From: Monosiga brevicollis MX1
Lineage: Eukaryota; Opisthokonta; Choanoflagellata; Craspedida; Salpingoecidae
DNA length: 64,000 nucleotides
Assembly (NCBI RefSeq): GCF_000002865.3
Contig: NW_001865065.1
Coordinates: 472,181-536,180, forward strand
Reading direction: 5' to 3'
Shown: piece by piece, positions 17,244 through 23,073 of the stretch
Layout: each line of letters starts with the position of its first letter
How positions within the stretch are numbered: position 1 is the first letter of the stretch
The notes under the pieces: generated by a model
Databases searched by the model: none
The model's input: the letters and a program-made list of their open reading frames with translations, nothing else
Told to the model about the DNA's origin: nothing
Program-made: the position numbers and the translations under genes

Positions 17244-18627
17244 TCACTGGATGTGGCGAGTACCCATAACTTCCTCGAGCGTTACGACCGTCAGGCCCTT
17301 GGCTTCATTTGACACTTTGCTTACTCGCAGCTCAGTACCTGGCGCCAAGATCAACCTGCGATGAAGTTCGGAGCGTCATCAGGGACATCTTGAAGAGTCG
17401 CTCATTCGAGTCATCTTCTACCCTTTCAGCCAGAACAGAGACCAAAGGCACGTACTCGGCTTCGCCTTTAAACGCGCTGTAGTCCATGATGCTCACAGCA
17501 CTAGGCGCCTTGACCTGGAACAGCATACGCTTGCCAGAGCTACGTGCATGCATTGAGAGGAGAGGAGGCCCATAAGACTTCTGCACCGACCATCTCACAC
17601 GGAGAGAGACGGACAGACGGAGAGAGACAGACAGACGGAGAGAGACAGACGGACGGAGAGAGACAGACGGAGAGAGACAGGGAGAGAGACAGGGAGAGAG
17701 ACAGGGAGAGAGGCAGGAAGAGAGACAGGAAGAGAGAGACAGGGAGAGAGGCAGGAAGAGAGACAGGAAGAGAGAGACAGGGAGAGAGGCAATTGACAAA
17801 GATGGAGTCGTGTGGCTGACCTGCCCGAGCTCATAAAGTTGCGAGCCACGCTCTCCTTGACGGTACACGAAGAAACACCCCACCAGACCACGGTCCGATC
17901 CTGCATGTCCATGTGCGTGCACGTCCGTTGAATAGGTTGGCGTGACAGGCGGGTGGAGACATGCGATTAGCTTCTGGGTGCACAGAGCTGTTTTAAATGC
18001 CAGAACAACGTACTTTGCCGTAAAGCTTGCGCAAGTCGAGGCCCACGCCTCTCCAGAGCGGCTCAAGGTTGGCGCCACGGTGCTTGTGAAGCTTGCCAAC
18101 GGCCTCAAAGAAGAGGCGCAGGTAAAAGTAGTAGGGTACAAGAAGCGCTCGATTGCCGTTGCGCAGCACCTCATTCAGGCGGCGGTAAAAGGCCGAGGCC
18201 TGCGTGTACAGGTTAATGACGGCAATCTCATCGACGCTGAGAATGGCGTCGTTCTGTTCCTTAGCATACTGCAAAGAAGAGTCAATGGCATACTGTGCAG
18301 ACGGCAGCGCTTGAATGATGGCTGCCATCACCGTCGCAAACGGAGGCACTGGCATGTCCATGATTCCAGTGACGGGCGCCAGCTGCTCGTCCTTTTGTGC
18401 AACATCCTGCAGACGCTCGAGATACATTTTGTGCAGATCTGTTGCGGGTAAATTGTGGGGCATGTTGCCACGGTGAGGACTTGAGATGATACGAACCTGC
18501 CGTTAACGTGAAAGCAGAAACAAAGATACGAACCGACTGTGGTGGAGACAAAGTCGCCCATGCGGTCCATGTGCACGGCGTCCAAGCCTAGTGCTGCCTT
18601 CCAACCCTGTCCGATCCAAATCGTCAT
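17244..18627 (-). other. Mono-ADP-ribosyltransferase (R-S-ExE) domain segment
   Basis: The segment resembles eukaryotic arginine-specific ARTs, which transfer ADP-ribose from NAD+. A helical N-terminal part (LYTQASAFYRRLNEVLR) leads to PLWRGVG, GVSSCTVKESVA and GEAEY in the family order. There is no signal peptide or hydrophobic C-terminal anchor, unlike the extracellular vertebrate ARTs, so an intracellular enzyme is inferred. An ATG at 18625-18627 could start it as an independent gene, but there is no room for a promoter or leader. Confidence 0.72.
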
Positions 18628-20096
18628 GAGCAAAGACGGGGCAGATCTGATCCTACCGCGAGTTTCGGTTTGGTTGATCCTGGCGGCGGAGTTACCTCGG
18701 TCGGAAGCCAATCAAACGGCTTGTATTGCAGCGACTCGAGCGCGTCATTAATGTCCGCAAAGTGTGTTCCCTGACAAAAGGCATCCCCCATGGCTGCGGG
18801 ATTGCAGTGGTCGAGCTGGACCACCTGTCGAGAAGGCAGGAGAAGAACACTGAGGTTAAGATGGCCAGGGTGAAAGCCGAGAATGCCTTGATGGCAGTGC
18901 AGGCGCAGAGAGACGGTTGAGAGCGGCAAACCTGGCAATCTGGATACTTGAGCGCAAGTTGGTCGACAATCTTCCGGAGGGCCTTGGCGTGCGAACCCCA
19001 CCAAGCGAAAATGACGCCTTCCTTCTTTTCCGCCTTTTCCGCCATGATGCTCTAGGTGGCGGCGCAAGATGCGGCGGCTTAAGAAACGGGTGCAAGACGG
19101 CAACCGATAACTGCACGTGCGTGTTTGGCTGGCACCGGGCACCGGGCAGCAGTAGGGGCCGGCCGTACCTCAACGATACGAGCCACAATGGGCTTCCAAA
19201 AGGTTGAGTGCTTGGATGTCGCCATGGCCTTATCTGTGCTTGAGGTAAGGCCCGCGTTGAGGAGAAGGCAACCCTGGGCTAGCATGGCTTGAAACCATTG
19301 GTGTGGTGAGACGACCTTTTGTTTCTTGAAGAGGGTGCGCAGCTCGGCCACAGTTGTGGCCTTGGGAACGTCAAACTTCCACATGGATGCGGATTTCATA
19401 ATGCAACGCATGCTGGTCACCGAGCCAAAGCGCTTGTCTTCCCACTGCGTAAAAGTGTTGTCTAGCATGGCCACGCTGTGCAACGGGCGAAAACAGGGCA
19501 GGGATCAACGCCACATCAGATGCCGAGCCCAAGGCAGTGTTTCTGGCGTGCGCTTTGTTTGGGTGTGTGTGCAGGTCCAAGCAAGCAAAGGGTTCATTTT
19601 CTTTTTTGCACACACGCCAAACGTGGACGTGTTGCCATCCTGCAGTAAGATCGCCGTACGCAGAACGGACCCAGTGGCGCTCTCCACGCGGGGGTACGGT
19701 GTTTGACCGAAGATGATGACCTTCCAATTTCCCGGTGCATTTGCCTTGAGCGCCTGGAAGGTGAGCTCGCGGACCGGAACGATGCTGCTTGCCCGCCCCT
19801 TGCCCAGAAAGTCCTGCACGCTGGGTTGAGAGCGGATCGTGCTCTCGAGCAACGGCAGCCACGCCTCGCCCCCATCGTTGAACAAGGCGGGTAGATCTAG
19901 GTCATCTGCTGCCACCGCAGTACATGACGATCGTGTTTTCCGCGAGGGTGCGTCCCCATGAGAGCGTAAGGCAAAAGCGAATCTAGGCCACAAAACAAGC
20001 GCGCCAAGTCGAGAAAGCCAGGCACATCTTACCGGCCGCGGCCGACACCTTGGCCTTTTTGGGCGCCTGTTCGCCCTGCTTCGTCTTGCTCGCCAT
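17244..20096 (-). CDS. Uracil-DNA-glycosylase-like / ADP-ribosyltransferase fusion protein
   Basis: Exons 20033-20096, 19614-19905, 19169-19475, 18932-19051, 18696-18824, 18534-18606, 18014-18438 and 17821-17900 join with GT-AG sites and consistent phases. Two more exons follow, from 17539 to about 17450 and from 17345 to 17244. The first five give a UNG-family fold: VIIFGQTPYP (motif A), QGCLLLNAGLT, FAWWGSHAK and LDHCNPAA, ending PFDWLP. After an 89 bp intron the frame continues without a new start into an R-S-E class mono-ADP-ribosyltransferase: LWRGVG (Arg), WWGVSSCTVKESVARNF (Ser motif), MDYSAFKGEAEY (ExE) and APGTELRV. Predicted length is about 560 residues. The ART active-site triad is intact, whereas the catalytic Asp of UDG motif A is replaced by Thr. 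The last ART splice junction is unresolved: the only phase-compatible sites shift the APGTELRV frame. If split, the UDG stop (18624-18626) would overlap the ART ATG (18625-18627). Confidence 0.72.
17598..17793. repeat. GAGAGACAGACGGA / GGAGAGAGACAG minisatellite in an intron
   Basis: Tandem purine-rich units fill most of the intron between the GVSSCTVKES exon (17821-17900) and the GEAEY exon (ending 17539 on the left). It is transcribed but non-coding. Confidence 0.9.
18696..20096 (-). other. UDG-like domain segment of the fusion gene
   Basis: UNG-type glycosylases flip uracil out of DNA and cleave the N-glycosidic bond. Here the water-activating-loop motif GQDPYH reads GQTPYP, so both the Asp and the His of the classical motif are changed. 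The LLLNA core, the WG strand and an HxxP-like motif (HCNP) remain. The short N-terminus (MASKTKQGEQAPKKAKV) is lysine-rich and nuclear-signal-like. The domain identity is supported by four motifs in the right order and spacing; activity is doubtful. Confidence 0.72.
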
Positions 20097-20235: not shown

Positions 20236-20321
20236 AAAGAGTTTTTTGCTATTGCCAGACACAGACAGACAGACAGACAGACAGAGACAGACATAGACAC
20301 ACAGACACACAGACACATGGT
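20236..20321. repeat. CAGACAGA/CACAGACA repeat
   Basis: A short (CAGA)n and (CACAGACA)n tract lies between the head of the UDG-ART gene and the tail of the P450 gene. It is not CRISPR-like because there are no spacers. Confidence 0.85.
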
Positions 20322-20359: not shown

Positions 20360-23073
20360 CTACACGGCTTCCACGAGCTTGCTGCCACGACGAGAAGTGC
20401 GGCGAGCAAAAAACCGCATCGGGAGGTCATCCGAGGCGTGTAGCACAGGTGGTTTGTAGACAACGCGCATCGTGGCGCGATCTCCAAGGTACTCCATGTC
20501 CAATCGTCGAAGTAAGTGTGACACCACCACCTGCAGTTCTGCAATGGCAAAGTATTTGCCCAGACAATATCGACGACCCTTGCCAAAGGGAAAGTACTGA
20601 AACGGGTTTTGCTCCACCTCACCGCCCGGCGCAAACCGAGCCGGACGAAACACCTACACAGGACAGCACAGGCACTTTGAGTCGGGAGCCCAGTGGACAA
20701 ATAGACGGGGGCCATGTTCGCCAGGCATCAGACAACCACCCACCTCCGGCTCAGCCCAGTACTCGGGGTTGCGATGAACGGCTGACATCATGGAGAGCAC
20801 CGGCGTGCCAGGCGACACAACCAAATCACCAATCTAACCATCAGCCGCCAAAGACCGAATGAGATCGGGCCAGCTCATGTGCCGCAGATCTCAAGCTCCC
20901 ATGCCTTGCCTCCCCTCTCTGAGCCCGTGTTCCAAGCACCAGCTTCACGGAGCCCTCCATCTGGCGTTTCATCTTTCCATTTGCCTGCGCAAAAGATGGC
21001 CAATAACAGTTCCCTAGCGCTTCCACGTGCCTGGGTCGTGTGCAGAGGACGGCGCGATGGAAAGCCACCCAAGGGTTCGTGGAGCCGCAGGGCCTCGTGG
21101 ATGGCGTTTGTGAGCTGTGGGACGAGCTTGCTCAAGTCTCCAGGCTGCTCCAGTGCCTCCAAGTCGAGCGCCGCATTCTCGGCCCGAAGCTTGGCCAGCT
21201 CCTGCCGAAAATATCACACAACGGTCCGGGTTATGGGGTTCAAAAGTGATGTGAGGTCCTCTTGTTCACGCGGAATAAATGATGTTTTTTTTTTTTCTTG
21301 GGGGAAGCGGGTTCAATCTGACCTTTGGGTTCACAGCCAACTCGTAGAGGAGCCAGCCCAGAGTCGTGGCCGTGGTTTCCGTGCCCGCAGCCAAAAGTAG
21401 CAAAAGGTTATCCCGCATGGCTGCATCGTCCAGCCTTGATCGATCATCCTCCTCACCATTTGCCTCTAGGATAAGATCGATCAACTTGATTTGACCATCA
21501 TCCTGCTCACCACTTCGTCGACGCGCCACCGCCTGGTCTACCAGGCCATAGAGTCGCTCAAAGCCTGTTTCCAATCGCTGCGTATCTGTCAGGACGTGGC
21601 GCAGCACTGGAATCTGGGTTCGCATACCCCCAGCCACCACACAACGGAAAAGGGCAAATGAAGGCAGGCCAAAAGGGGCTTGGGTTAGTTCACCTCAAGG
21701 TCAGACAAGCAGGCAGGCAGGCAGGCAGGCAGGCACGCAGGCTTCTGGCGTGTGCTGTCAGCCCCATTGCACCGATGGGCCACAACTGACCTGGTGGGCG
21801 AAATTGGTGAATTCATTTGTCATGTAGATAAACTCCTGGGCCATGAGATCTTGCTCGTCAGGTCTGCCACACCAGTGTACACAAACCTGAGCTCAAGGGG
21901 CGTGCACACACACGAAGAGAGCCAGAAAGGCCAGCATCACGAACATACCGCAACGTATTGCCAAAAGCTGTCTCGATGATGACGCTCAGGGTCATCTTTC
22001 CCAGCCAGTGACCCAGTTTGACCGAACCCTCTGTGCCACGTCACGATGCAGAAACTTAGCAAGGTCCTTGGCGCGCCCGGCAGCAAAGCACGCAAAACGC
22101 AAGCCGCAAAGGTCGGGCCGCTTGCGCCTGCAGACGCACCAGCTTGACTGAGCTCCAATAGTGAATGGGCCAGGCGTTCGCCACGATTGGCAAAGGTCGA
22201 CCGAAAGCCCACCAGTTTATCGGGACTGAAAGCCTTGTACAAGATGCGATGTTGACGGCGCCATTCCTCGCCGTTTGCATTGATAATGCTCTATACATGT
22301 GAGCGTGAGAATAGCGGGCGTTTCCAGGCCGCCACCCAGCCGCCACCCACAGCATTCCGATCTTGCTACAAAACCCACCTGACCAATGAACCGGTTGAAG
22401 AGGGCAAAGCTCGAGTTATCCCGTGTGTAGTTGAGGTCATTATCCGTGAGCAGCTGCTTAATGTCCTCAGGGCGCGTGAGGACCACGTTGGGCTCATACG
22501 CAAACCACAGAACAAAAGCCCCAAATCTACCGACGAGAAGAGGGGCGGAGGGTCCATGGGCATACGGGGTGAAAGATGTATAAACTCCCAGTGCGAATGG
22601 CTTGAACTGCAAGCAGCAAGTCGCAAGAGGTGCAATCGTACCCCTTGTTCAGGTCCATGAGGTGCTGCATCGTTCCGTGATATCTCTGGCAAACGTGGAT
22701 GAAGGGTGGCGGCAGCGACATATAAAGGTGAGCGAAAAACGCATGACGAATGTCCGGCTTGCAGGCTCAGGATCTAACCTGCATCAACGCGGTAAACGAG
22801 CCAGCCAGAGGGCTCCAGGGCTGAACCTTGAGGTACGTTCGAAGCCTAAACGCGCCGCGCAAGTCGTGACAACAAGCAGTGGCACGCGCCTCTGATGGTC
22901 GCCGAAAGATTGACGTAAACGCCCTGTTGTTGCCAGCAAAAGCACACCTACCGGGCATTGTAAACTTGTCTAACACGATGCCATTGACGAAGATCAGGCA
23001 GGAACGGGTAGAGCAGGAGCAGGGGCACCAGGACCACCCCTGCCACCACCACCAACGCCACAGCCATCCACAT
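20360..23073 (-). CDS. Cytochrome P450 (membrane-anchored)
   Basis: This is a haem-thiolate monooxygenase of the endomembrane type; the substrate is unknown. The start ATG at 23071-23073 opens a Val/Leu-rich N-terminal anchor (MWMAVALVVVAGVV and onward). Further exons encode VVLTRPEDIKQLL, HRILYKAFSPDKL, the I-helix AAGTETTATTLGWLLYEL, the K-helix NAIHEALRLHEPLGG (ExxR), FRPARF and the haem-ligand loop FPFGKGRRYCLGK with its Cys. The stop is TAG at 20360-20362. All canonical P450 motifs are present in order, so it should be functional. It is paralogous to the P450 at 28411-31013, sharing RILYKAF, RYCLGKY and AAGTETTAT, but it lacks the intron that the other copy has just after the haem loop. 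A (GCAG)n tract sits in an intron at about 21711-21744. Confidence 0.9.

Follow-up and report, generated by a model that had tools for sequence, protein, structure and literature searches.

A gene on the minus strand of the choanoflagellate Monosiga brevicollis MX1 (17244..20096 of a 64,000-nucleotide stretch of contig NW_001865065.1, positions 472,181 to 536,180, hereafter the window) joins a uracil-DNA-glycosylase (UDG)-like domain and an R-S-ExE ADP-ribosyltransferase (ART) in a single gene model. The same fusion, here called UDG-ART, was found in one open frame in actinomycetes, where a macrodomain gene is linked to it and a recA-type promoter motif lies upstream. The explanation that we favour, and to which we give roughly even credence, is that the protein consists of a UDG-fold reader, a conserved linker and an R-S-ExE mono-ART, that it belongs to an actinomycete module of a writer and a macrodomain eraser or antidote under a recA-type damage promoter, and that it would be targeted to DNA.

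The two domains are encoded as one protein

Both halves of the predicted Monosiga protein were found by tblastn in the same four actinobacterial replicons (ART half 43-47% identical, UDG half 55-56%), in which the halves form one open frame and the linker encoded by exon 6 is conserved. A profile scan of prokaryote genomes detected 205 loci encoding relatives. The best 80 of these, which we take to be from actinomycetes by their genera, were kept and, together with the four tblastn loci, make up the 84 bacterial loci described here. The UDG-like domain, the linker and the ART lie in a single open frame in 84/84 of these intronless loci. The Monosiga protein is 49-53% identical to the bacterial copies, all of which are about equally distant from it. 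Scans with single sequences confirmed no relative in viral or prokaryote contigs, nor did a profile scan in viral contigs, and a motif pattern likewise found none.

The bacterial proteins read straight through the point at which the Monosiga gene carries an intron (consensus DWLPSKGWN vs. DWLPTE|GWK in Monosiga). Since they provide an independent intronless template, we regard the predicted fusion of the UDG-like domain and the ART as settled short of the transcript level. The initial annotation, made from the letters of this DNA, had claimed such a fusion, with an exon ending at 18696 (PFDWLPTE, donor GTAACT) and, after an 89-bp intron ending in CAG, an exon from 18606 in phase 0. These features were borne out on the minus strand. 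The bacterial frames strongly support one fused protein, and the domain search of the predicted protein returned a UDG-like N-terminal half and a PF01129 ART as the C-terminal half.

The annotation had also pointed out that the same letters could hold two separate genes, a UDG-like one with its own stop and an ART starting from its own ATG. The ATGA overlap on which this relies is indeed present, as the read-through TGA at 18626-18624 overlaps the ATG at 18627. Nevertheless, the single-frame bacterial proteins share the conserved junction and linker, and the 89-bp intron contains no AATAAA, which would count if Monosiga uses this signal, so that we consider two genes very improbable.

The coding span (ATG to TGA, minus strand) was modelled from the frame, the intron phases and the bacterial alignment as 10 exons encoding 542 amino acids (aa). 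The model was corrected by homology and its nine introns are all GT-AG. Exons 2-10 are 41-67% identical to the bacterial consensus, while exon 1 (20033..20096), with the start codon and a basic N-terminus, matches it at 1/6 residues and is the least certain. The UDG-like domain extends over exon 2 (19671..19905; 48/78 residues identical to the bacterial consensus), exon 3 (19169..19475; LLLN motif, 59/103), exon 4 (18932..19051; FAWWGSH, 20/40) and exon 5 (18696..18824; 24/43), where it ends with the DHCNPAA motif and PFDWLPTE. Motif 1 of this domain, placed in exon 2 by UNG alignment and the 542-aa model, is at 19688..19708. The junction intron (18607..18695; GTAACT...ACAG), which the bacterial genes lack, is followed by exon 6 (18534..18606), encoding the linker GWKAALGLDAVHMDRMGDFVSTTV, which aligns with the bacterial linker GWN...RMGAFIASTM at 10/24 positions.

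Exon 7 (18014..18438; 61/138) comprises linker and the N-terminal half of the ART with LWRGV, which holds the R of the R-S-E triad, and exon 8 (17821..17900; 16/24) contains the S in WWGVSSCT. The ExE motif straddles the exon junction 17456/17355: exon 9 (17456..17539; 15/28) supplies the first E (GEA|E), and the second is completed in exon 10 (17244..17355; 15/37), which also encodes the C-terminus and the stop. The PF01129 match, as computed from the 542-aa model, covers 17271..18232 in exons 7-10 including introns. The start of exon 7 was set to 18438 by homology (FVSTTV|DLHKMYLERL). The start at 18496 used in earlier models was rejected, since it either broke the frame or added 18 residues without a bacterial counterpart.

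The bacterial fusion is paired with a macrodomain

A macrodomain adjoins UDG-ART, or shares its frame, in 82/84 loci; the two exceptions (L043 and L079) reach the end of their contig on that side. The two are divergent in 63 loci, co-directional in another frame in 11 and in the same open frame in 8, one of which (L028) is annotated as a single 801-residue protein matching PF01661 and PF01129. All 28 macrodomain members scanned matched PF01661. Aside from the UDG-ART/macrodomain cluster, a crude gene call revealed no neighbour family in more than 9/84 loci.

The pairing was also seen in the co-occurrence of the two genes among 394 genomes of one bacterial family. UDG-ART (E <= 1e-20) was detected in 93 of them and the macrodomain (E <= 1e-10) in 93, with both present in 90, where about 22 would be expected if they were independent (Fisher p 4e-81, uncorrected for shared ancestry). 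The gap between the two matches was 121-367 bp in the 40 of 90 pairs measured. The three genomes with UDG-ART alone gave partial UDG-ART matches only. Of the three that had the macrodomain alone, two carry its match at the start of a contig, and in the third the match is partial.

We make no claim of an arginine-specific macrodomain of the MavL type, as the motifs given for it in PMC10951314 were not evident by eye in the module consensus. Separately, distant relatives of the macrodomain (about 31-36% identity among the matches listed) were seen in plasmid records of Escherichia, Salmonella and Citrobacter, several of them under phage tail or tail-fibre annotations.

A recA-type promoter motif lies upstream of the module

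The RecA-NDp type of promoter is described as preceding DNA-damage genes and the UV-induced Streptomyces macrodomain gene SCO6735 (PMC5087735). Its consensus was found upstream of all the actinobacterial recA genes fetched as a positive control (3/3; 3, 1 and 3 mismatches). With up to three mismatches allowed, 59 occurrences of the motif fell in module upstream DNA (25,357 bp) and 4 in the remaining 1,309,809 bp of locus DNA; shuffled upstream sequences contained none. It was present in 55/82 loci, namely in 19/19 of those with co-directional or same-frame genes and in 36/63 of the divergent ones. A module-derived consensus, which was built partly from the same loci on which it was scored, detected at up to four mismatches a motif toward the macrodomain in 51/63 divergent loci (0/63 after shuffling). 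The LexA box showed no clear excess over shuffles.

The arrangement described so far could also belong to a toxin-antitoxin or anti-phage module, in which UDG-ART would arrest growth or abort on modified or uracil DNA, the macrodomain would be the antidote as in DarTG, and the eukaryotic copy would be a domesticated effector. The near-obligate pairing agrees with this, as do the patchy distribution (3/396 Actinomycetota genomes, query genome included, vs. the 93/394 in one family), the lack of other widely shared neighbours and the presence of some copies on replicons filed as plasmids. Moreover, the genomes with UDG-ART alone gave partial writer matches, and in the genomes G570 and G759 the writer match falls into two frames, with the break near query position 206-213, next to a macrodomain match free of stops. 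The reverse case, however, was found in G471, where the macrodomain match is in two pieces and UDG-ART is whole. PADLOC gave no match for the two proteins scanned, the viral contigs contained no confirmed relative, and the recA-type promoter together with the 8 loci carrying both activities in one frame fits a regulated cycle at least equally. In view of both sides, a toxin-antitoxin or anti-phage role seems to us rather unlikely.

The catalytic Asp of the UDG-like domain is replaced

The N-terminal half of the fusion matched the UNG proteins of the PDB with a best E of 1.7e-13, a signal well beyond what chance would give. The NCBIfam model ung matched the fusion at E 1.2e-20 with 74.3 bits, which is below its cut-off of 185.75. 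The Pfam family PF03167 was not among the matches of the Monosiga fusion protein at E <= 1 and was matched by 3/36 bacterial relatives (E <= 0.01).

By sequence, the domain belongs to the same family as the family-1 UNGs, and it keeps the WWGxHA region as well as the Asn of LLLN and the motif-4 His, the latter two in 84/84 bacterial loci and in the Monosiga protein. It differs from these enzymes in the ART fused to it and in two motifs. At the position of GQDPYH, the bacterial loci read GQNPYPR (84/84) and Monosiga reads GQTPYPR, both Asp and His being replaced, and the HPSPL region reads HxNPAA in the bacterial and Monosiga proteins, with Ala in place of the wedge Leu. In the family-1 UNGs, the Asp of GQDPYH is catalytic, the Asn of LLLN contacts uracil and the Leu of HPSPL is the DNA wedge. 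Because the catalytic Asp is replaced (by Asn in bacteria and Thr in Monosiga), the UDG-like domain is probably a reader whose glycosylase chemistry has been lost. Some active enzymes of the UDG superfamily carry Asn at this position, and the bacterial form may have weak or altered excision activity.

A separate UNG-like gene, split over exons and having the intact motif DPYHGPGQAHG, is present on contig C9 of the Monosiga genome, and the fusion is therefore an additional UDG-fold protein. In phages, all UDG-like matches had less than 60% identity (20-26% among the matches listed, 20 of 55 records); one PHROG with no function assigned was matched at E 9.9e-17.

Two further UDG-like stretches were noticed in the genome. 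At C32:402048-402548 (L017 1264-2799), an intronless frame of 511 aa contains the UDG-like stretch GADPPGNLWGPHATGVAF ... CAHPSD (TIGR00628, E 3e-5) followed by an alanine/lysine-rich tail, has no Pfam match at 0.01 and is possibly another non-canonical UDG-fold protein. At C27:500890-501015 (L001 1423-1581), a PF03167 match carries a GINPG-type motif, which by eye resembles what we take to be the TDG/MUG branch of the superfamily.

The ART domain keeps its catalytic triad

PF01129 matched the fusion at E 1.2e-9 with 38.2 bits against a cut-off of 22.3 bits, as determined with an earlier model of 560 aa, which equals the 542-aa model plus 18 extra linker residues. The same family was matched in all 36 bacterial members scanned (E <= 0.01). 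The R, the S and both E of the R-S-ExE triad are present in 84/84 bacterial loci and in Monosiga, and since they are kept, the ART half is expected to be a working transferase. Its most likely activity would be mono-ADP-ribosylation at arginine, the default of this ART clade. Foldseek returned 26 matches at E <= 0.001, all of them ARTs including Vis, HopU1, ExoS and ART2.2, and no UDG was among the 50 matches listed. The AlphaFold models were poor (mean pLDDT 52.3 and 55.2), and structure matches such as these lend weak support.

Alternatively, the ART could modify the base or DNA itself, directed by base flipping, with the macrodomain removing the mark. The UDG fold normally presents a flipped base, which speaks for such a reaction. 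Thymine- or uracil-linked ADP-ribose is reported to be removed by the macrodomains of TARG1, DarG and SCO6735 (PMC13036486, PMC9411070), which points the same way. Against it, the ART matches PF01129, the arginine type, no DarT- or pierisin-type family was among the matches listed, and the macrodomain profile matched the DarG structure (5m31) at a mere E of 0.17. Direct modification of DNA is, in our view, unlikely.

The fusion was found only once in the Monosiga genome. Two other PF01129 matches, belonging to different genes, were observed there: one at C35:216692-217210 (L011 55-3282) within a 1075-aa open frame, and one at C47:717545-717856 (L012 913-1911) downstream of motifs that by eye resemble CCCH zinc fingers, which makes its protein a candidate RNA-binding ART. 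Stretches 28-30% identical to the ART half were also seen in Janthinobacterium, Xanthomonas and Variovorax phages, under morphogenesis or minor head protein annotations in the two annotated phages.

A possible reader-writer-eraser module

The initial annotation had viewed the fusion as a DNA-recognition module that delivers an NAD-dependent modifier. We infer the same, with indirect support from the recA-type motif and the linked macrodomain. In the mechanism that we propose, the UDG-like domain would hold the enzyme at DNA sites around damage, for example at uracil, at another altered base or where the DNA is single-stranded. With NAD as donor, the ART would attach ADP-ribose to proteins in the vicinity, with arginine as the default acceptor of its clade, and the macrodomain would take the mark off or limit its toxicity. 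A more specific version, which we regard as rather doubtful, is a lesion-directed cycle: the UDG fold would flip uracil or an altered base without cutting it, the ART would mark the base or a bound protein, the damage-induced macrodomain would erase the mark, and the writer would later have been captured by a unicellular eukaryote. If true, such a cycle would parallel PARP1/PARG by convergence.

The part that ADP-ribosylation plays in the DNA-damage response is known best in eukaryotes, and we know of no dedicated reader-writer-eraser pathway of ADP-ribosylation established in bacteria. Bacterial hints of a link to damage are the damage-induced Arr, the PARG of Deinococcus and SCO6735 (PMC5087735). 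The actinomycete module with its damage-type promoter motif suggests an undescribed damage response, the writer gene of which was acquired by a single-celled eukaryote. As candidates for reader, writer and eraser are joined or adjacent in 82/84 loci and accompanied by a recA-type motif, the bacterial question is directly testable, and some of the genera concerned include laboratory strains.

Several observations weigh against this explanation. In the divergent loci, the RecA-NDp motif faces the macrodomain in 36/36 cases and additionally UDG-ART in 3, so that induction would there act on the eraser and not on the writer. A motif on the macrodomain side fits the raising of the eraser on damage, and it is the most awkward point for a simple story in which damage induces the writer. 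Furthermore, 12/63 divergent loci have no motif even at the relaxed threshold, and deletion of SCO6735 is reported to cause no sensitivity to ultraviolet (UV) light or methyl methanesulfonate (MMS) (PMC5087735). The macrodomain matched PDB profiles weakly (best E 0.0049), its best Foldseek match, made with a low-confidence model, was to 1njr (5.6e-5), and its role as a hydrolase is only predicted. The classical erasers of arginine-linked ADP-ribose belong to a different family (ARH). PF01661 had no match in the whole Monosiga genome (the control genomes were all prokaryotes), and the module macrodomain matched that genome at E 0.058 at best, with internal stops, although introns may hide divergent relatives. 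The motif-1 residue of the UDG-like domain is Thr in Monosiga and Asn in bacteria. Finally, the 80 of 205 loci were kept by likeness to a bacterial query, and copies closer to Monosiga or free of a macrodomain may have been missed.

Comparison with described systems

The combination of UDG-like domain, ART and macrodomain was not found described among the open-licence papers listed in the literature searches. Terms for an ART and for a glycosylase both occur in PMC13368585 and PMC7824862. To the initial annotation, too, the combination of UDG-like domain and ART was not known from any described protein. The fusion is not confined to Monosiga: the architecture is a conserved actinobacterial one, and the eukaryotic gene is related to it instead of being an isolated oddity.

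Of the systems described so far, DarTG, SCO6735 and a phage sirtuin-macrodomain pair come closest. DarTG resembles the module in having a bacterial ART writer, an adjacent macrodomain protein and a link to DNA; this adjacency was found in 82/84 bacterial loci, with no partner detected in the Monosiga genome. It differs in that the module ART is of the PF01129 R-S-ExE type and not of the DarT family, and in that the module has a UDG-like domain and a damage-type promoter motif. The likeness of the macrodomain to DarG is weak in Foldseek as well (E 0.93 on a low-confidence model).

SCO6735 of S. coelicolor is likewise a Streptomyces macrodomain behind a RecA-NDp promoter and reported to be UV-inducible (PMC5087735) and to be active on thymidine-linked ADP-ribose (PMC9411070). 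Unlike the module macrodomain, among whose PDB matches SCO6735 is not named, it is assigned to the ALC1/TARG1 branch (PMC5087735); the word glycosylase is absent from the main texts of both papers. The toxin-antitoxin pair of Streptomyces phage Moab also couples the gene of an ADP-ribosylating enzyme to that of a macrodomain in an actinobacterial context (PMC9503650), but its enzyme is a sirtuin instead of an ART, and glycosylase and UDG have 0 occurrences in that paper, which mentions no UDG-like domain.

The PF01129 mono-ARTs ART2.2, Vis, HopU1 and ExoS share the catalytic triad with the ART half and are its structure neighbours in the low-confidence model; the fusion differs from them by its N-terminal UDG-like module and, in bacteria, by its macrodomain partner. 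PARP1/PARG offers an analogy, with a DNA-lesion reader on an ART and an eraser of macrodomain fold, although both the reader and the ART clade are different and the module presumably performs mono-ADP-ribosylation.

Origin and surroundings of the Monosiga gene

The fusion gene lies on a 605-kb contig. Just upstream of it on the same strand, a cytochrome P450 gene ends at window positions 20360-20653 (PF00067, E 2.7e-14). The relatives found are bacterial, as they would be if bacterial DNA had contaminated the assembly. Such contamination is nonetheless extremely improbable, given the nine introns, the length of the contig, the P450 neighbour and the mere 49-53% identity to the bacterial copies. 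Because the copies in actinomycetes are intronless and Monosiga has a single, diverged one, the writer was most likely acquired by horizontal transfer from bacteria and gained its introns later, a direction of transfer that we infer from this distribution. For another ART family, Tox-ART-HYD2, a transfer to choanoflagellates has been proposed earlier (PMC3482391).

Two repeats were noted at the gene, a CT-rich array at window positions 17580-17800 inside intron 8 and, upstream of the coding span, one rich in TCTG near 20240-20310.

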